From positions 1 to 61,217 of IMG/VR virus record IMGVR_UViG_3300035128_000109: a DNA stretch of 61,217 nucleotides, one strand, 5' to 3'. The stretch's first letter is position 1; each line of letters starts with the position of its first letter. Below are positions 1 through 61,217 of this stretch, piece after piece. The notes beneath the pieces were generated by a model. It worked only from the letters and a program-made list of their open reading frames with translations, had not been told where the DNA came from and did not search any database. This stretch comes from a virus. Made by a program: the position numbers and the translations under genes.

Positions 1-20
1 AATTTGCAATAGGGTCCCAT
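1..20 (-). CDS. Cassette ORF start, cut by the window edge
   Basis: A start codon at 20-18 follows an AAAGGA ribosome-binding site and begins a reading frame (Met-Gly-Pro-Tyr-Cys-Lys) that leaves the window at base 1. If the molecule is circular and closes exactly at the window ends, this frame stops after 11 codons. A different frame (see 61147-61217) stays open across the join without a clear start. Either a few bases are missing at the join or the cassette gene is broken. Its position between two attC sites makes it part of the integron array. Confidence 0.3.
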
Positions 21-75
21 TTGAAAATCCTTTCTACTGAGAGTAAGCAGCCGGGCTTGCGAATTGATCCGCTGC

Positions 76-128
76 GCCGTTCGGCTGCCAAGACCCCTGC
101 ACTTGGGGTCGCAGCGCAGCCGAACGGC
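76..128. repeat. Cassette leader hairpin A
   Basis: Perfect 13-bp inverted repeat (GCCGTTCGGCTGC at 76-88 and its complement at 116-128) with an inner 6-bp stem (GACCCC/GGGGTC, 92-97 and 105-110). On the minus strand it begins exactly at the core site of attC-2 and leads into the next cassette. Hairpins of the same design follow attC core sites at 60082-60157 and 61032-61107. Confidence 0.7.
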
Positions 129-245
129 CTGCGTTACTGGCAGGCGGATTATGACGGATCCGGCTCATTGCCAGAACTAGACGATTTGACGGTGTGATCT
201 TCGGGCGGCTGTAATGCCGCCTGTCCAGTGCACGCTTTGTTAGCC
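119..245 (-). other. attC-2 recombination site
   Basis: Read on the minus strand, the left arm begins GGCTAAC (245-239) and the right arm ends GTTCGGC (125-119). The inner arms pair almost continuously (GCGT-ACTGG-CAGGCGG-ATTA at about 237-205 against 131-153), with single unpaired bases on one side as in integron attC sites. It overlaps the 3' end of the ORF at 149-367, a common property of integron cassettes. Core sequences deviate from RYYYAAC/GTTRRRY at one position each. Confidence 0.75.
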
Positions 246-367
246 GCCATCACGACGAACAGGGCAAGCTGGCTGCCGCGCCCGCGAGATACGCGGAAGC
301 CGCACTTGATAGCGGCCTCCACGATTTGCCGATATGCTTCATCTGTGAGATAGATCGATTTAGGCAT
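149..367 (-). CDS. Ribbon-helix-helix-like protein (putative antitoxin), integron cassette
   Basis: 72 residues. The ATG at 367 overlaps the stop of the preceding ORF (ATGCCTAA), so the two are translationally coupled. A longer start at 388 lies inside the upstream gene and is less likely. The N-terminus has a beta-strand (KSIYLTD) followed by two helices, as in small RHH/CopG DNA-binding antitoxins. The C-terminal 30 residues, from MAANKACTG on, are encoded by the attC site and are probably not functional. With the 360-704 ORF it forms one cassette with its own promoter and a palindromic operator, the usual layout of toxin-antitoxin cassettes. The RHH call rests on pattern only. Confidence 0.6.
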   Translation of the reverse strand: MPKSIYLTDEAYRQIVEAAIKCGFRVSRGRGSQLALFVVMAANKACTGQAALQPPEDHTVKSSSSGNEPDPS

Positions 368-704
368 TACTTGCCTTTTCGTAAGCATTCCAAGCTGCCA
401 AATACTCTTTTGGAACCCTGGAAATATCTTTCACATCCTCCCATGCTTGAGTTCCGTCCGGCAGCGTCTTCGATAGACATTGCCAAGTATAGTCAAATGG
501 TCGGAGCGGATGAGTCCACTCCCTATACTTGGCCTCCATCTTGCGGAGTTCTTTTGTAATTTCTAAGAACTCCCGATATCTTTTTTCTCGCTCACGCTTA
601 TCTTCTATGGCGTTCACGAGAGATTGCCTTGCGATTTCTGGATTTATTTCTTTCAAAATTGCAAAACCTTCAAGCTCTTGTTTGTTTCTAAAAATGCCGT
701 TCAT
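360..704 (-). CDS. Putative toxin or partner protein, integron cassette
   Basis: 114-residue, charged, mostly helical protein with no motif I can name. The start at 704 has a strong ribosome-binding site (AAAGGAGAT) and follows a consensus promoter at 736-763. It is coupled by a 4-base stop/start overlap to the RHH-like ORF downstream. Toxin-antitoxin pairs are frequent integron cassettes and, unlike most cassettes, bring their own promoters; that is the reason for the suggestion. The gene order (this ORF first, RHH second) would be toxin-antitoxin or the reverse; the sequence does not decide it. Confidence 0.6.
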   Translation of the reverse strand: MNGIFRNKQELEGFAILKEINPEIARQSLVNAIEDKREREKRYREFLEITKELRKMEAKYREWTHPLRPFDYTWQCLSKTLPDGTQAWEDVKDISRVPKEYLAAWNAYEKASNA

Positions 705-723
705 TTTTTATCTCCTTTTGTTT

Positions 724-763
724 ATCTATAGTTATATTATACTCATATTCTATAGATTGTCAA
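724..763 (-). promoter_or_regulatory. Cassette promoter with palindromic operator
   Basis: On the minus strand TTGACA (763-758), a 16-nt spacer and TATAAT (741-736), followed by AAAGGAG and the ATG at 704. The 8-bp inverted repeat ATCTATAG (757-750) / CTATAGAT (731-724) flanks the -10 box. This is the geometry expected for an autoregulated toxin-antitoxin promoter. Confidence 0.75.
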
Positions 764-786
764 GAGGCAATTTCTAGTAAAGTGGC

Positions 787-915
787 GGCTAATGGCTTGC
801 GTTAGCGGCTCGCCGATTCGTCCTGACAACCATGCGGACACATATAACGATAACCGTGCAGGCACAATTCTGGCGGGGGCGGTACAGGCGAGTCCGCCTG
901 CACGCTTTGTTGGGC
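787..915 (-). other. attC-1 recombination site
   Basis: Left arm begins with a perfect RYYYAAC core, GCCCAAC (915-909), followed by AAAGCGTGCAGGCGGAC; the right arm ends at ATTAGCC (793-787). Internal arms pair (GCGT-AGCGG-CTCGCC) with extrahelical bases on the left arm. The right core is ATT instead of GTT, so this half may be degenerate. The site overlaps the end of the ORF at 802-1038, giving the AAQQSVQAD peptide that is typical of attC-encoded C-termini. Confidence 0.75.
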
Positions 916-1038
916 GGCTTCTTTGAGAACAGTGTTTTCGTTTTGCACCTGACGCAACTTTGCAAGAGTTACATTTAGTGCATCTCGACAATTGCCATGC
1001 AAGGCAATCAACTCATCCAATTCAGTTGTTATGCTCAT
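802..1038 (-). CDS. Small coiled-coil protein, first integron cassette
   Basis: 78 residues. The first half is a helical heptad-like stretch (ELDELIALHGNCRDALNVTL and following), and the second half is the peptide encoded by attC-1. The start at 1038 has an AAAGGAAG ribosome-binding site and lies 24 nt beyond the attI core GTTGGGC, so this is the attI-proximal cassette. Function unknown; no homologue recognised. Confidence 0.65.
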   Translation of the reverse strand: MSITTELDELIALHGNCRDALNVTLAKLRQVQNENTVLKEAAQQSVQADSPVPPPPELCLHGYRYMCPHGCQDESASR

Positions 1039-1061
1039 GACTTCCTTTCGGCGGAGTGTCC

Positions 1062-1068
1062 GCCCAAC
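1062..1068 (-). other. attI core site at the 3' end of intI
   Basis: On the minus strand the intI stop codon TAA (1071-1069) is followed without a gap by GTTGGGC, a perfect match to the integron core GTTRRRY. The first cassette starts here. attI usually lies at the other (5') end of intI; a 3' location with co-directional cassettes is known from reverse integrons such as that of Treponema denticola. Accessory integrase-binding sites were not resolved. Confidence 0.8.
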
Positions 1069-2064
1069 TTATGATTCTACTATCACCTTCTGCATAACAG
1101 GAAGTGCTTTCATGTAATCCAACGGCGAACTAACCGACGCAGCCCTCAAGTGGTGCGTGTAAATCATTGTTGTTTCAAGTTTTTTGTGACCTAACAGTTC
1201 CTGCACAGTCCTAATATCTGTGCCATGTTGAAGCAAATGGGTTGCAAAACAATGACGAAAAATGTGTGGATAACACCGCTTTGCTATGCCGGCTTTCTCG
1301 CCCGCCCTTCTAACTGCACGTTGAATACTGGACTCATGAATGTGATGCCGGCCAACGCGCTCACTTCGAGGATCTTTTGATAACTGCGAAGATGGAAAAA
1401 CATACTGCCATTTCCATTGAAAAGCAGCATTCGGATATTTTCTCCTCAACGCATAAGGCAATTCTACTTCTCCATAACCGTTAGCGAGATCTGCCTGATG
1501 TTGTGCTTTTACAATATTCAAATGCAATTGCAGAGCTGGAATAACAACCAAGGGAAGGCAAGTGGTTCGGTCTGCATTCCCCTTCGTATCGCGGAGGACG
1601 ATCACGTGATTATAAAAGTCTATTTCTTTCACCCGTAACTTCAAGCATTCATTCAAGCGCAGTCCTGCACCATACATCAACTGCGCCATGATCTTGTAAA
1701 CTCCATCCATATTTTCAACGACACAATGAATCTCGCCCTCTGTCAAAACCTCCGGAATCCGATTATCACGCTTAGCTCGAAATAGCTCTATGTTTTCAAT
1801 CCGAATACCATAAAGTTTGTATAAAAACAAAACAGCCGCCAGCGCCTGACCTTGGGTGGTTGGGCTTAGATTCTTGACGACAGACAAATGAGTAATGTAT
1901 CGCTTCACGCCAAACGACCTTGCTTCCCGGGGATGCTCGCCGGCTAAGAACCGGATATACCGACGAATCCAGCCCACATAAGTCTTTTCTGTTCTCGCAG
2001 ATCGACCTTTCCGTCGCAAAGCATTCTTATATTCAGCAATCAGTGTGTTTTCTGTCATTTTCAT
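1069..2064 (-). CDS. intI: Integron integrase IntI (tyrosine recombinase)
   Basis: 331 residues, close to IntI1 in length. The tyrosine recombinase catalytic set is complete: R136 (GAGLRLNE), K161 region, H267-x-x-R270 (PHIFRH), H293 (LGHKKLETT) and Y302 (MIYTHH). Residues about 205-250 ([20 protein letters not shown] to [20 protein letters not shown]) form the extra IntI domain that binds folded single-stranded attC and separates IntI from XerC/D and phage integrases. The gene is co-directional with the cassette array that starts at its stop codon. It overlaps a small ORF at its start (2033-2260), so expression may be coupled. It shows the same GCCGGC-rich composition as the phage backbone. 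No frameshift or missing catalytic residue. Confidence 0.96.
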
Positions 2065-3725: not shown

Positions 3726-3939
3726 TGCGCCCTCCAATGTCAATTTTACTCAAAGATTCAACCGGGAACGTCCAGTAGGATACAAACGTGTCCACGCTCG
3801 TGTCTCCATCTCCAGGGAAACACATAGACATCTGGTGATTCAGATAAACTACCTTGTCTTTACGGCTGACTTTTTCCACCCGGGCGATTCCCTGGCATCG
3901 ATCAACTCGCACGAAGTCACCCTTCTTGATTGTCGGCAT
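3718..3939 (-). CDS. Small conserved-type phage protein (SH3-like)
   Basis: 73 residues; the first half (KKGDFVRVDRCQGIARVEKV) has the pattern of a small SH3/KOW-type beta barrel. It overlaps the gene on each side, so it belongs to the 3246-5030 operon. Function unknown. Confidence 0.5.
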   Translation of the reverse strand: MPTIKKGDFVRVDRCQGIARVEKVSRKDKVVYLNHQMSMCFPGDGDTSVDTFVSYWTFPVESLSKIDIGGRNE

Positions 3940-53181: not shown

Positions 53182-55365
53182 TTATTCACCATCCTTTTCG
53201 GGAGCCGATTCTTCTGATAATTCAGGTTCAGTCACTTCCAGATTGAACCCGCGCCATTCACCGCCATCCACCAGGTACACCTTGGAGAAATTCAATTCCA
53301 TCGGCTCCACGGTATCAATCGGCATCTCATCGCCGGCGTAGATGTACGCCAGAGTCATGTGGGGGATAAAGCCATGATTCTTGTGGTAGGGTATCCCTTG
53401 TTTACCCAGATAGGCGCAAAGTTCCTGTCGGAATTCGGGTAAGTCGGGGGAGTCTATAGTAGCCACAATCGGATCCTCTTCGCCGCCCGAAACGAACCGG
53501 GCAATACCCTGCAAGGTGGTCTTGATCGGGTTCGAAGTCTTAGCAAACTCACTGACAGCTAACGCGGCCTTTTCCATGTCCAGGGTGCGAGAGTCGCCCA
53601 GGAACGCCAGGGTAATATGAAGATTATCCCGCGTCTCATCGCTCATAAATGGGTATTTCTCTTGCAACTCATCCCGTAGAGCCGGCGGAATCCGGAACGC
53701 AACCATGGCCGAATTCTCGTTCTCGTTGTGAATGAGAACCGGGCCGGCGGTCGTGGGATACCAATGGTCACCGGTGGCCATTACTATATGGCCGGCTTGG
53801 ATATTGGACAATTTTATAGAATGTGTATCGGTCTCTAGCGCCTTGCGTATTCTGTTCAACTCGACCGTCACTGGCTTAGAATCTTTCTCACCTCCACCTT
53901 GTGGGGGATTAGAACCGTTCTTGCCCTGGTCGCCGGGTGGATTCATACGATTGCGCTCTTCAAGTTCGGCTTGTTTGCGTTTCTGTTCGGGAGTCCAGAC
54001 GTAATCCATGTAACGGCTGGCAAACTCTTCGAGCGGCATGACGATCTCGGGAGCGTTGCCTGAAGCCGTAGCAATAGCCTGGGCAGCTTTGAGGGCCAAA
54101 TCCATCTTTTGCATGTCATTCAACTCGATGAGAGACGGCCAAAAGACAAAATACTTATCTGGGAGGTCCAGAATACCAAGTTCATCACAACGTTTCATGA
54201 ATGGTCTTAGGATGTAAGGCTCCGCGAAGTTGTGCCGGCGAGCATCAATCAGGTCCATGAAATTATCATCGTCCTGAGAACTGGCCAATTGGCCGCGTTC
54301 GGAGCCCAGGAGTCTCCGCTGGGGGATTCCTTTTGCGCCGGCAATGTACTCTACGATCACATCGAATTGTTCCCTGGAATCTACAGGTTTTCCTCCAAGC
54401 TCTTTCACATTCAATCCTTGAGCCCGAACAACCCGACGGAGATTATGTTCCCATTCATCCCATTCATCTTGCATATCTTCATATTCAGTTGAATCTTTTG
54501 GAGGCGCAGAAAATCCTTCATCTGCTTGTAGAACAACACCCTGATAAATAAGTTTCCAAAACGCCTCAGAGCCGCCCCCCAGCACCTTCTCGAGATCCCA
54601 CAGGCGATTGATAATATTCTTCAACCCCGGAACACCGTACACGCGCCCTAAACCACCAACGCGCTGCCGGCCCTGTTTGATGTGGATTACACGAGAATAA
54701 TGAACTCGCCTGGTAATTTCTCCCTGGTCATCGATGATGATATTGTAATAATTAGGCTGGCCAAACCTTTCAGACTCCGGGTTTTTTTCGATGTTGGCCT
54801 CATCAACGGTAGCAGTGCCTTCATCACAGGCGATCACGTAGGCCAGTTCGCCGGCCTGTCCCTCCACCTTTTCCTCAGGCTTCCCTGGTAGCCCCAGATA
54901 CAGCAAGGAGAACCGGGAGATCCCGAGCATCCGGTCAACCTCCAGGAACTGAGCCCAGAGATCGTGCTGGTCTGCCAATTCCTTAAAACTTTCGTGCAGC
55001 GTGCCAGGGTCGGCTTTATCATCCTCGGCTTTGTCCTCGCTTTCAAACAGTACCGGATGTTTCCGCCAAGTCTCGTCGGCAACAATATCGACGACTCGCG
55101 TCCCCAAGCCGTCACGTTCGTAGATGTTGAGATAATCCACATACTCAGGATCAAGTTTATACCCAAGGGTATCGTAAAGATTACGTTTTCCATCAAAAGA
55201 CTGCCCCAGGGCACGCCCCAGGCCGGCGCGGGTCAGTCGCGAAAGATACGCATTGGCCTGCATAGCATGATCAAGCTCGCGGTGGGCTGCGTTGAGTTTG
55301 TTCTGCAAATCAGCTTTGGTACCGGCCCGGGGTTTCTTGGTATTACTCTTACTCTGAACGGTCAT
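53182..55365 (-). CDS. Portal protein (DUF1073-type) with C-terminal 2H phosphoesterase domain
   Basis: 727 residues. The first 460 residues follow the DUF1073/anti-CBASS-associated portal pattern (YLNIYERDGLGTRVVDIVAD, IPQRRLLGSERGQLASSQDD). The C-terminal 170 residues have the two H-x-T motifs of 2H phosphoesterases: HITLAFLG at about 583 and HMTLAYI at about 669. Related 2H enzymes (Acb1) cleave cyclic nucleotides of CBASS immunity. A segment before it (HWYPTTAGPVLIHN) resembles the end of a Hint/intein domain. Confidence 0.75.
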   Translation of the reverse strand: MTVQSKSNTKKPRAGTKADLQNKLNAAHRELDHAMQANAYLSRLTRAGLGRALGQSFDGKRNLYDTLGYKLDPEYVDYLNIYERDGLGTRVVDIVADETWRKHPVLFESEDKAEDDKADPGTLHESFKELADQHDLWAQFLEVDRMLGISRFSLLYLGLPGKPEEKVEGQAGELAYVIACDEGTATVDEANIEKNPESERFGQPNYYNIIIDDQGEITRRVHYSRVIHIKQGRQRVGGLGRVYGVPGLKNIINRLWDLEKVLGGGSEAFWKLIYQGVVLQADEGFSAPPKDSTEYEDMQDEWDEWEHNLRRVVRAQGLNVKELGGKPVDSREQFDVIVEYIAGAKGIPQRRLLGSERGQLASSQDDDNFMDLIDARRHNFAEPYILRPFMKRCDELGILDLPDKYFVFWPSLIELNDMQKMDLALKAAQAIATASGNAPEIVMPLEEFASRYMDYVWTPEQKRKQAELEERNRMNPPGDQGKNGSNPPQGGGEKDSKPVTVELNRIRKALETDTHSIKLSNIQAGHIVMATGDHWYPTTAGPVLIHNENENSAMVAFRIPPALRDELQEKYPFMSDETRDNLHITLAFLGDSRTLDMEKAALAVSEFAKTSNPIKTTLQGIARFVSGGEEDPIVATIDSPDLPEFRQELCAYLGKQGIPYHKNHGFIPHMTLAYIYAGDEMPIDTVEPMELNFSKVYLVDGGEWRGFNLEVTEPELSEESAPEKDGE

Positions 55366-55368
55366 TGA

Positions 55369-56841
55369 TTACCTTCTTCCAAATGTGCCGTAATATTTTT
55401 TCACCGGCTTAGGAGCGAATACCTGTATCACTGTGTCGGCGTAATTGGTAGAACGCCCAATTCTCTTTTTTATATCATCCTTCCCCTCAACCTGGATTTT
55501 ACCACCTGATTGCACCTTCCACTTCGGTGCAACGAGCTCCCCCGTTAATTCATCATCGGGAGGCAGGTCAATCTCATCATACTGCAAAGATTCGCGTATA
55601 TTCCACCAAGCAGCCGACCTCATATTCGCAAAACCCAACTCTCCCGACCTGTCTGTCATTTCTGTTTTTTCGCTTGCGTTGAAGGGGATAACACGCTCCT
55701 TTATCTTCCATCCCTCGGCCTCACGCGCCCGATCATAAACGCCGGCACCGACCCCGATCAGGTCAATAACTGCTCTAGCATCCGTATGCGCTTGAAGTAA
55801 ACCCACCACGACTCCAGTAACGTGCATCACGTCCCGGACATCCAGCCGGCGAAATTCAGTGATCGCGTTTCCGCACCGAATCCCAATTACAGACGGGTCA
55901 CCACCACGACCAACATCGACACCAAAGCCGACAACATCCCCCCAATCCTCAAGCTCTTTCCTGACAAGCCAGCGTTCATTTGAACGCTCAACCCACGAGA
56001 GAGGAATAACACTATCTTCATCACTGGATGCAAAGTCGCCAAGGACGCGGTTTATATAAACGCTTGAGTCTTCTCCCCACTGCCTTTTTCTAGCCTTCGC
56101 CCAATTCTCGTTGATCCTGCCGGCTGTGATTGCCATCTCCAGTGTAACCCGGAACACTTCCCAATCCTCGTATCCGCGCTTTCTTGAGTGTATATCATAG
56201 AACCGACCAATCGGCTCCCCTGGAGTGGAAACAGCCAACCAGAAGCAATCCCCCGTTGACATTGCACCTTCGGCGGCATCCCAGGTATCATCAGGGACGG
56301 CCTTGCTCTCATCGAATAGGTAGAGAATATTATCCGCGTGAGCCCCTTCGATCAGGGCTGCATTGTCTGAGGCGATAGCAAACGCTTCACCAGTATCCAG
56401 TTTTATACTTAACGTGAGCATTTCATTACGAGTGAATGGAAGCCGGCCTATTTTATCCCATTTCAACCGGTAAGACCATTTATGTATTTCTGGCCATAGG
56501 AAGTGAGACAGCTGTCTCCAGGCACTTGCAAGAGTCGGGATCTTCCAATCCTCTCCATCCCTGGTAAGCGCAAACCATAAAATAACAATTGCAGCGAAGG
56601 CCGTTTTTCCCAGGCCATGTGGACCACGCATAGAAAAACGCCGATATTTGACCAGCCGTCGCATTCCTTCAAGTTGGTATTCGGTTATCTCCTCCCCTCT
56701 CCAATCTATACATTCCCGAGCAAACCCCGCCAGATCCGACCAGTACTTTTTCTGGAATAGTTGGTAGGCGCTTTGAGAATCGCCAGTGATCCTCCGCCGG
56801 CGCTCCAGTTCAGCCTTAGCTCTTGTTTGCAAGTACATCAT
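55369..56841 (-). CDS. Terminase large subunit
   Basis: 490 residues. Walker A GPHGLGKT near residue 75, Walker B ILYLFDES near 172, and a nuclease domain beginning VVGFGVDVGRGGDPSVIGIR near 287. Start overlaps the small subunit by 26 bases. Confidence 0.92.
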   Translation of the reverse strand: MMYLQTRAKAELERRRRITGDSQSAYQLFQKKYWSDLAGFARECIDWRGEEITEYQLEGMRRLVKYRRFSMRGPHGLGKTAFAAIVILWFALTRDGEDWKIPTLASAWRQLSHFLWPEIHKWSYRLKWDKIGRLPFTRNEMLTLSIKLDTGEAFAIASDNAALIEGAHADNILYLFDESKAVPDDTWDAAEGAMSTGDCFWLAVSTPGEPIGRFYDIHSRKRGYEDWEVFRVTLEMAITAGRINENWAKARKRQWGEDSSVYINRVLGDFASSDEDSVIPLSWVERSNERWLVRKELEDWGDVVGFGVDVGRGGDPSVIGIRCGNAITEFRRLDVRDVMHVTGVVVGLLQAHTDARAVIDLIGVGAGVYDRAREAEGWKIKERVIPFNASEKTEMTDRSGELGFANMRSAAWWNIRESLQYDEIDLPPDDELTGELVAPKWKVQSGGKIQVEGKDDIKKRIGRSTNYADTVIQVFAPKPVKKYYGTFGRR

Positions 56842-59624: not shown

Positions 59625-59852
59625 GCCTAACGGGGCGCGTGATAAGCTGCCAACGGAGTACGGGGCAGGCTAGACGCCGTTTTCATAGCGGGATTTACGG
59701 ATGCGTTCATCTACATATCTAATAATTTGCCTATAAATTTCATTTCTGTAGTCGGCTTCTTCTTTTGAGATATAAGCATCCGTTTCACTTGTAGGCTGTT
59801 CGGAAACGGGAGTTTCCCCGTACCGTTGGACAGCTTCATTACGAAGTTCGGC
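59625..59852 (-). other. attC-4 recombination site with long loop
   Basis: Left arm GCCGAAC (59852-59846) with CGTAATGAAGCTG and CCAACGGTACGGGG pairs with the right arm, ending in a perfect GTTAGGC (59631-59625). The two arms are about 150 nt apart; the loop holds the C-terminal coding part of the gene 59670-60035. Confidence 0.75.
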
Positions 59853-60035
59853 GTCGCGTAGACTTCCAACCCCCGCCTGTCGCACGTCATGACAATTCCA
59901 ACAAATCACGAAATGTGGGAAATTAGCATCATCGGGAACCAAAACGTCTGACTCTGTGAAATCATTACAAGAAGGACACCAGGCATGACCTCCATAAGGT
60001 TCCACGAGTTTATATTTTGATTTACTCAAGTTCAT
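59670..60035 (-). CDS. Zinc-ribbon protein, integron cassette
   Basis: 121 residues; ribosome-binding site CAGGAGA. CPSC and CWNC form a zinc ribbon in the first 50 residues; the rest includes an attC-encoded peptide (AELRNEAVQRYGETPVSEQP) and a charged helix. Function unknown. Confidence 0.65.
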   Translation of the reverse strand: MNLSKSKYKLVEPYGGHAWCPSCNDFTESDVLVPDDANFPHFVICWNCHDVRQAGVGSLRDAELRNEAVQRYGETPVSEQPTSETDAYISKEEADYRNEIYRQIIRYVDERIRKSRYENGV

Positions 60036-60081
60036 TTGCTATCTCCTGTTTTTGCAAGTAAGACGCCGTGCTTCGTAATTG

Positions 60082-60157
60082 ATCACGCGCGCCGTTCGAC
60101 CGGGCGATTGTGGTCGCTCCCCAGACCACATGAGCGACGCCGAACGGTGGCGCGGAT
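60082..60157. repeat. Cassette leader hairpin C
   Basis: Arms ATCACGCGCGCCGTTCG (60082-60098) and CGAACGGTGGCGCGGAT (60141-60157), plus inner GTGGTC/GACCAC (60110-60115, 60124-60129). Begins at the attC core and leads into the 59670-60035 cassette. Confidence 0.65.
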
Positions 60158-60937
60158 GAGCCGCCAACGGAGTACAGGGGGGGGTTAGCATCCTGTTTCC
60201 ATAGCGGTCGGCAGGGCGTGTTTGAGAAGATACCCGCCGATAAACTCTGTATAGGCTGGCGGGATTGCTTCTGCCAATTCTCGCCTATTCATCCAGTCAA
60301 TATCTTGTGCAATTGAACCGTCCTTTCGATCAAAATTATTTCCAACACACGATATTGCTTGCGCTCCGTTTCGGAATGCAGAATACCCGTGAAAGGCGTT
60401 GGTAAATAATTTGCGACACTGGCACGTTGCAGGAGCAAAATAAATAGGCGGGTTTACTTCAAATAACCTGTGCCTAATCAGTGGCAATCCAAACATTGTT
60501 CCACAAAGCATCAACGGATTGCGAAGTGGTGCGCCTGGTACATTTTCTATTACAAAAGGCTTTTTTGTTCTCATAAGTAGTTTTCTAACCGGCACAATTA
60601 ATTTTGGATACTTTTTTGTTGATAAACCCTTTAGTCTGGAATACCTTTGGCATGGCGGGCTTGCATGAAAAGCGTCAAATATATCAGCGAATTCTCGTAT
60701 AGCTTGCAAGGCATCCATTTTGTGAAATTCAAAAGGATAGCGAGGCTGATCTTCGACATCAAACCCTACGACTTCGAACCCTGCTCGATAGTATCCCATC
60801 CCTGCTCCGCCAGCCTTGCAAAATAGGTCGGCTATTTTTGGCTAGACACAAAAGCCCTGCCCTTTTCGCTTGTAGGATGTTGAGATAACGGGATTGCTCC
60901 CTGTACCGTTGGTCGGTCTCCATTCGCTTGTTAGGGC
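60139..60937 (-). other. attC-3, arms split by the methyltransferase gene
   Basis: Left arm at 60937-60900 (GCCCTAAC, GCGAATGGAG, CCAACGG, TACAGGG) pairs with the right arm at 60182-60139 (plus strand GCCGAAC, GCGGATGAG, CCAACGG, TACAGGG), about 32 matches in 40 with extrahelical bases. The arms are about 720 nt apart, and the methyltransferase gene lies wholly in the loop. In ordinary attC sites the loop is a few to about 100 nt. Confidence 0.7.
60185..60841 (-). CDS. C5 cytosine DNA methyltransferase, no canonical start
   Basis: 218 residues counted from the first codon after an in-frame TAG (60844-60842). Motif I IADLFCKAGGAGMGYYRAGF, motif IV SPPCQRYS (catalytic Cys), motif VI VIENVPG, motif VIII RHRLFE, and motif X AIPPAYTEFIGG are all present. 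Motif I lies upstream of the first ATG (60799), so a start there would delete the SAM site. Between TAG and motif I only CCA-AAA-ATA-GCC is available; ATA at 60835-60833 is the only near-start. The TAG may replace an original ATG (TAG-CCA-AAA for ATG-CCA-AAA). Target and activity unknown. Confidence 0.75.
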   Translation of the reverse strand, partial: PKIADLFCKAGGAGMGYYRAGFEVVGFDVEDQPRYPFEFHKMDALQAIREFADIFDAFHASPPCQRYSRLKGLSTKKYPKLIVPVRKLLMRTKKPFVIENVPGAPLRNPLMLCGTMFGLPLIRHRLFEVNPPIYFAPATCQCRKLFTNAFHGYSAFRNGAQAISCVGNNFDRKDGSIAQDIDWMNRRELAEAIPPAYTEFIGGYLLKHALPTAMETGC

Positions 60938-60979
60938 GAACGGCCCTTGCAAGTCTAGTGGTTTTGATCTCGAAATCAT
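60842..60979 (-). CDS. Small cassette ORF in frame with the methyltransferase
   Basis: 45 residues: starts ISRSKPLDLQGPFALTSEWR, ends at the TAG directly before and in the same frame as the methyltransferase, so read-through would fuse the two. Most of it is encoded by the attC-3 left arm. Weak evidence for a functional protein. Confidence 0.3.
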   Translation of the reverse strand: MISRSKPLDLQGPFALTSEWRPTNGTGSNPVISTSYKRKGQGFCV

Positions 60980-61031
60980 GATTGTTTGGACACCTTTTAC
61001 CTTTCAGCGAAAGCCCTTACAAAGCGAATTG

Positions 61032-61107
61032 CATCCGCGCCACCGTTAGGGCGAGCGATTGGGGCCGCTCTTTGGCTCCATGAGTTCGCCCTAACGGCGC
61101 AGCGGAT
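61032..61107. repeat. Cassette leader hairpin B
   Basis: Imperfect 22-bp arms at 61032-61053 and 61086-61107 sharing CCGTTAGGGCGA and its complement; 19 of 22 match. Same design as hairpins A and C. After the second arm comes GAT-CAATTCGC-like sequence shared with the other cassettes. Confidence 0.65.
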
Positions 61108-61217
61108 AAGCTACACAGGGCGGGCTTGTATCCGCTGCCATAACGGTTAATTCTTCTCGCTTGCAAGCTGTTCAGGGTTAGTAGCCTGCCCTGTGATAGC
61201 TTCATTCGCAAGTTCGG
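61089..61217 (-). other. attC-5 reaching the window edge
   Basis: Right arm ends GTTAGGG (61095-61089). On the minus strand the left arm GCGAATGAAGCTATCACAGGG near 61206-61186 pairs with GCGGATAAGCTACACAGGG of the right arm, with an extrahelical T. The left core (CCGAAC, 61217-61212) sits exactly at the window end. Confidence 0.65.
61147..61217 (-). CDS. Cassette ORF end, cut by the window edge
   Basis: Open frame ending ELANEAITGQATNPEQLASE and a TAA at 61149-61147; it continues to the window end. SELANEA/AELRNEA-type peptides are encoded by attC left arms in this array, as in the 59670 gene. If the ends join directly, the same frame extends through bases 1-60 on the minus strand (LSVERIFKWDPIANSELANE) but has no start codon. 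Confidence 0.35.
   Translation of the reverse strand, partial: ELANEAITGQATNPEQLASEKN

Follow-up and report, generated by a model that had tools for sequence, protein, structure and literature searches.

A DNA methyltransferase gene probably inserted in the loop of an attC site of a phage integron

Cassette 3 of the phage integron described here probably carries a genuine attC site, attC-3, in whose variable terminal structure a complete or nearly complete C5 cytosine DNA methyltransferase gene is inserted. This reading draws on sequence comparison and predicted folding, and attC-3 is a single example. We consider it one attC and not the halves of two because the leader of the cassette copies both arms of the site and because the ends of its loop match the loops of related attC sites. 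The best reading is the simplest one, in which an existing attC received the gene in its loop.

The phage contig and its integron

The window, that is, the whole stretch of DNA analysed, is an IMG/VR virus record of 61,217 bp that is classed as linear. Its phage genes and the integron features other than cassettes 3 and 4 are as follows.

53182-55365: portal-like gene, weak HI1409-family match
55369-56841: terminase-like gene, related to phage terminases
58357-59481: second tyrosine recombinase
1069..2064, minus: IntI, integron integrase of 331 aa (TIGR02249, 2a3v; motifs GLRLNE, HIFRH and MIYTH)
1061..1068, minus: attI-like/first cassette junction G|TTGGGC, just beyond the IntI stop, cut position computed
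793..1067, minus: cassette W_attI, attC R'' about 918-909, R' cut 793|792
125..792, minus: cassette W1, attC R'' about 248-239, R' cut 125|124
1..124, minus: first part of cassette W2, with a leader containing an inverted mini-copy of attC-1 and a gene start (MGPYC...), exiting the contig
61095..61217, minus: last part of cassette W2 with attC-1 (L'' 61202-61189, 68-nt loop, L' 61120-61108, R' cut 61095|61094)

The integron is real, and IntI belongs to the integron integrase family: it scored 376.4 bits against TIGR02249 (cut-off 265), and its best solved relative was IntI4 of V. cholerae (2a3v, E 5e-69). It is distant from the integrases of phage records, to which the best full-length matches had 38-44% identity. 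We infer the attI solely from its position beside the intI stop. The cassette array lies downstream of intI on the same strand and exits both contig ends. Six cut sites were counted in the window, and the cassettes have an R'' complementary to their own 5' ends. For example, R'' of W_attI (GCCGCCCAAC) is complementary to the start of that cassette (TTGGGCGG), and R'' of W1 (GGCGGCTAAC) to the start of W1 (TTAGCCGCC). The first-pass annotation, made from the sequence alone, had called the sites attC, and this complementarity and the TIGR02249 score of 376 bits show that it was right.

The leader at 1-124 matches the attC-1 arms at the opposite end of the contig (left 10, right 13). Because it copies the arms at 61217-61095, a single cassette most likely spans the two contig ends, and the phage genome is most likely circular or circularly permuted. 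We observed that the assembly broke within the cassette array (cassette 2). The gene start of W2 is the same in the sister phage L012, which is 90-96% identical to the window over most of the shared backbone and differs in its array. Relatives of the cassette-2 gene were found at 13 loci, L012 among them, and no integron was seen among the loci examined. IntI matches in other viral contigs were L006-L011; the ORF layout of one of them, L006, showed no cassette array. No Rfam family was found in the window.

Integron integrases and/or attC arrays occur in phage genomes, methyltransferases are among the cassette genes, and phage attC sites are used by IntI1 (Qi et al. 2023, PMC9892861). The present integron resembles those phage integrons and CALINs in its integrase and attC array and in its methyltransferase cassette, but its IntI is distant from the IntIs of phage records, its leaders contain inverted attC copies and a gene lies inside an attC. 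As in the atypical integrons of Treponema (PMC3607928), the cassettes lie on the intI strand, whereas the location here is a phage.

The arms of attC-3 and the gene in its loop

The features of cassettes 3 and 4 are listed below. The minus strand is the coding, or top, strand of attC-3.

60145..61094, minus: cassette 3, whole unit of 950 nt between computed cuts, with the methyltransferase gene within its attC
61013..61094, minus: leader of cassette 3, with R', an inner hairpin and an inverted mini-copy of the attC-3 flanks (61013-61053)
60842..60979, minus: 45-codon ORF of cassette 3, crossing the left arm into the loop, stop TAG 60844
60899..60941, minus: left arm of attC-3 (R'' GTTCGCCCTAAC 60941-60930, spacer, L'' 60921-60899)
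60861..60898, minus: left conserved part of the attC-3 loop, homologous to the loops of attC-4, L097 and L137
60208..60860, minus: insert of about 653 nt, between segments shared with attC-4 and attC-1
60185..60799, minus: C5 cytosine DNA methyltransferase ORF, 204 aa from ATG (PF00145, phrog_363)
60180..60207, minus: right conserved tail of the attC-3 loop (CCGCTATGGAAACAGGATGCTAACC), homologous to the tails of attC-4 and attC-1, encoding the last methyltransferase codons
60139..60179, minus: right arm of attC-3 (L' 60179-60158, spacer, R' GTTCGGC 60145-60139, scissile step 60145|60144)
60146 joined to 61094: predicted junction of the excised cassette 3 circle, ...CCACCG|TTAGGGCG
59631..60144, minus: cassette 4, with a leader, an ORF (60035-59670) and attC-4
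attC-4, minus: R'' 59857-59846, L'' 59837-59816, 150-nt coding loop 59815-59666, L' 59665-59646

The first-pass annotation had placed complementary arms at 60900-60937 and 60139-60182, with about 32 matches plus extrahelical bases and a loop of about 720 nt. Both arms were found there, with limits refined to 60941-60899 and 60179-60139, and the loop measured 719 nt (60898-60180). Counting by eye gave the same total of about 32 matches, to which the L stem contributed about 20 pairs, the spacer 5 and the R box 7, with extrahelical bases in addition. The left arm scored 16.5 against the right arm. In 300 random 720-nt phage stretches the score had a mean of 10.0, a standard deviation of 1.3 and a maximum of 14.0; chance complementarity of the arms was therefore rejected. 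A closer, better-pairing partner had been named beforehand as the observation that would refute a single site. We sought one across the 719-nt gap and found none, the best score for the right arm there being 8.5. Each arm is the best partner of the other, the leader copy at 61032-61050 excepted.

Folding had also been proposed as a check, and we used a partition function with DNA parameters. L'' and L' were predicted to form 14 + 3 + 3 pairs, with T and T bulged out of L'' and AG out of L', and the L boxes paired with P about 0.99. Core L-arm pairs had P 0.95-1.0 on both strands with the natural 719-nt loop, and the mean predicted L-arm pairing was 0.74-0.86 when the loop was swapped for other phage DNA. 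The R boxes were predicted to pair with P 0.98 in the circular cassette. In the integrated array, where the neighbouring cassette supplies R', P was about 0.01. In the predicted fold of the circular cassette 3, pairing of the R and L boxes gives the standard attC anatomy; full R and L stems were likewise predicted in the circle for attC-4 and the L097 site. R'' of cassette 3 (60941-60930) is complementary at 12/12 positions to the start of the cassette (61095-61084), and R'' of cassette 4 is 12/12 complementary to its own 5' end. For cassette 3 this is the expectation if excision completes R'.

Reported attC sites are 57-141 bp long (PMC5371416), and their loops range from 3 nt up to the large branched loop of the VCR, 65 bp (PMC5371416, PMC2727003). 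Replacement of the VCR loop hardly altered recombination after delivery by conjugation (PMC2727003), and with long attC loops up to 4 logs were lost, only in replicative conditions (PMC8946536). Like the VCR of Vibrio cholerae and other long-loop sites, attC-3 has the order R''-L''-loop-L'-R', extrahelical bases, an unpaired spacer, a predicted bottom-strand hairpin, G|TT cassette boundaries and a dispensable variable terminal structure. It differs from them in its gene-bearing loop and in its length of about 800 nt from R'' to R', which is outside the range given above, a descriptive one. The R' boxes of the window are also looser (TTCGGC, TTAGGG): attC-3 does not fit the consensus GTTRRRY (GTTCGGC, with C at position 4), R' of attC-1 (GTTAGGG) is loose as well, and R' of attC-4 (GTTAGGC) fits.

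The two ends of the loop were compared with the loops of other sites. For the left part, the scores against attC-4, L097 and L137 were reached by 0/1000 shuffles. For the right tail, the score was reached by 1 to 3/1000 shuffles with attC-4 and by 0/1000 with attC-1; these matches are short (score 12 against a null mean of about 6), and the same shuffle-tested comparison gave no detectable match to the tails of L097 and L137. Comparable loop ends are separated by about 6 nt in attC-1, 86 nt in attC-4 and 96 nt in L137, and by about 653 nt in attC-3. Because the loop ends are homologous to other attC loops, the gene occupies the variable middle.

Coding loops occur in other sites of the same attC type, with lengths of 150 nt in attC-4, 163 nt in L097 and 159 nt in L137, so this attC family already employs the loop as coding space. 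The loop of about 150 nt with coding sequence that had been described for attC-4 was confirmed at 59815-59666. ORFs that run through the left arm into the loop are common (attC-4, L097, L137 and the second methyltransferase-like cassette of the relative G001), and they often end just short of the right arm. In the G001 cassette we observed a second cassette-borne DNA methyltransferase-like gene (L131:2529-3395; DPPY motif, by eye), whose ORF crosses the attC left arm and loop.

The methyltransferase of cassette 3 matched PF00145 with 29 bits when read from 60841, motif I included (cut-off 22), and phrog_363 with 9e-26. The protein is short and of a type known from phages. It has relatives in 299 phage records, and over 94% of its length it is up to 47.7% identical to mycobacteriophage proteins; a search of the two relative phages found none. 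Motifs IV (PPCQ), VI (ENV) and VIII (RHR) lie within the ORF. Motif I (DLFxxAGG) lies in the same frame, shortly before the annotated ATG, and the stop TAG 60844 precedes this motif. The methyltransferase ORF had been said to fill the loop. The gene does lie in the loop, but the ORF annotated from 60799 begins inside conserved motif I, and the conserved frame opens at 60841. GTG 60849 is the closest start to have a plausible ribosome site, and it is in a different frame. Between this likely start and motif I (60849-60830) we noted a frame break beside a run of A, for which mutation, error and recoding are options. As sequenced, the methyltransferase is truncated, frameshifted or provided with an unusual start, and its 5' end suggests that it may be inactive now.

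Cassette leaders and relatives

Leaders of the same structure were found in the window and in its relatives.

Window, minus: leaders at 61094-61013, 60144-60062 and 124-1
L012: leader-bearing cassettes at 123, 623, 1483, 1753, about 2040 and 2636
G001 and L137: leaders in L097 at 842 and 1360, in L131:3420-3520 and 3790-3865, and in L137 rc 3733-3850
L137, 9086-9588: solitary cassette with leader, ORF and attC (159-nt loop), directly after a phage ORF stop

The leaders begin with R', followed by an inner hairpin that covaries (its loop resembles CAAAGAGC/CAACGAAC). Next comes R' in reverse complement, and last an inverted mini-copy of the attC of the same cassette, without its L boxes and loop. 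These leaders are absent from Rfam. Across 9 cassettes from 3 phages, the leader fitted its own attC best for the right arm in 9/9 cases, and for the left arm its own attC was best or tied (own-versus-other permutation, p = 5e-6 for the left and p = 5e-6 for the right). The leader of cassette 3 matches both arms that flank the methyltransferase, with 14 contiguous nt in the right arm (CATCCGCGCCACCG).

Leaders of this structure also recur in the long array of the relative G001 (L097, L131). In L137 the cassette is intact and of the same attC type, and no further such attC was seen nearby. Because this solitary cassette includes its leader, the sequence suggests that the leader moves together with the cassette. 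The leaders could have been left as a footprint when cassettes formed, or could be a structure in competition with the folding of attC. In a limited search of the open-access literature we found no report of inverted attC copies in leaders, nor of a gene inside an attC hairpin.

A relative with the same attC and without the insert was not found in genome contigs or in viral contigs, the latter searched with DNA patterns of the attC-3/4 arms and the leader. The matches in viral contigs were mostly chance, the only real relatives being L012, L097/G001 and L137, and the scan of genome contigs gave two matches, both chance.

Alternative explanations and meaning

We judge it unlikely that cassette 3 is a fusion of two neighbouring cassettes with related attC sites, in which deletions removed the right half of the first site and the left half of the second and so left chimeric arms around the second gene. 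Fused cassettes are known to arise in class 1 integrons through loss of part of the first attC (PMC4670013), and arrays of these phages delete often. One case is a natural deletion fusion in L012 (2857-2977), where the left half of attC-4 is joined to a gene homologous to window 59566-59394 and an attC seems to be retained behind the second gene. Another is in G001, which has at least one orphan left attC half ahead of a gene (L131:5013-5050). Moreover, the methyltransferase frame has no proper start, as at a deletion end. However, a left arm near the 3' end of the methyltransferase is absent (best score 8.5), so two deletions would be needed. The leader of cassette 3 also copies the right arm exactly over its 14 nt, and the L boxes match each other at positions that vary between sites (TACAGGG/CCCTGTA versus TACGGGG/CCCCGTA). 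Cassette 3 resembles the class 1 fusions (blaGES-1/aacA4, PMC4670013) in that two coding units lie between consecutive, presumably functional junctions and would be moved as a single cassette, and in having an attC half upstream of the second gene. In a fused cassette the second gene has a complete attC and the first attC is partly lost; in cassette 3 the left half has a matching right half past the gene, and the second gene lacks a complete attC. The earlier claim that the methyltransferase lies inside one attC thus withstands comparison with a two-site chimera, given the leader copy and the shared loop flanks.

An error of metagenome assembly, joining two attC-containing fragments at a repeat, is very improbable. 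The repetitive array and the break of the contig within cassette 2 would allow it, but the attC-3 arms differ from the other copies, the leader, arms and loop ends of cassette 3 are mutually consistent, and the methyltransferase junctions lie outside repeated sequence.

That the arms are a chance or unrelated inverted repeat, such as a transcript hairpin, is hardly credible: R' and R'' stray from the strict consensus and known attC sites are far shorter than this one, but an IntI gene is present, several adjoining sites are of the same sequence type, R'' is complementary to its own 5' end at 12/12 positions in cassettes 3 and 4, the bulged bases are conserved, and a solitary intact cassette of this type occurs in another phage, L137.

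If a gene was inserted into one existing attC, its entry would have been an illegitimate, non-IntI event. IntI is not the likely agent of entry because the gene lacks an attC of its own, and of the two origins offered in the first-pass annotation, insertion by another mechanism is the one favoured. When the bottom strand is single-stranded, as on the lagging strand, in conjugation or in another single-stranded entry, it would fold through its R and L boxes and carry the gene as a giant loop. IntI could then mobilise the cassette and the gene as one unit. Use of attC-3 by IntI is plausible because the predicted folding is intact. Cruciform folding from double-stranded DNA would be nearly impossible; attC-3 is thus predicted to work after single-strand delivery and to fail from a supercoiled duplex.

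More generally, we suggest, tentatively and with considerable doubt, that the attC loop of this phage integron family accepts genes and that IntI then carries giant loops. In addition, the leaders, as inverted copies of the own attC with the L-stem hairpin skipped, may be the footprint of a way of making cassettes in which strands switch across the folded attC, or may act as a switch in competition with attC folding.

attC-3 is several times longer than any attC reported, and whole genes may lodge inside such sites. An attC is recognised by its shape, and its loop is thought free to vary; a natural 719-nt loop that bears a gene is an extreme test of this idea. The site would also cleanly separate the two folding pathways, from single-stranded DNA and by cruciform extrusion. 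Searches for attC sites that are limited by size are expected to miss such cases. The leader with its inverted attC copy is relevant to how cassettes are born, and, if attC-3 works, genes would be mobilisable from within a recombination site.
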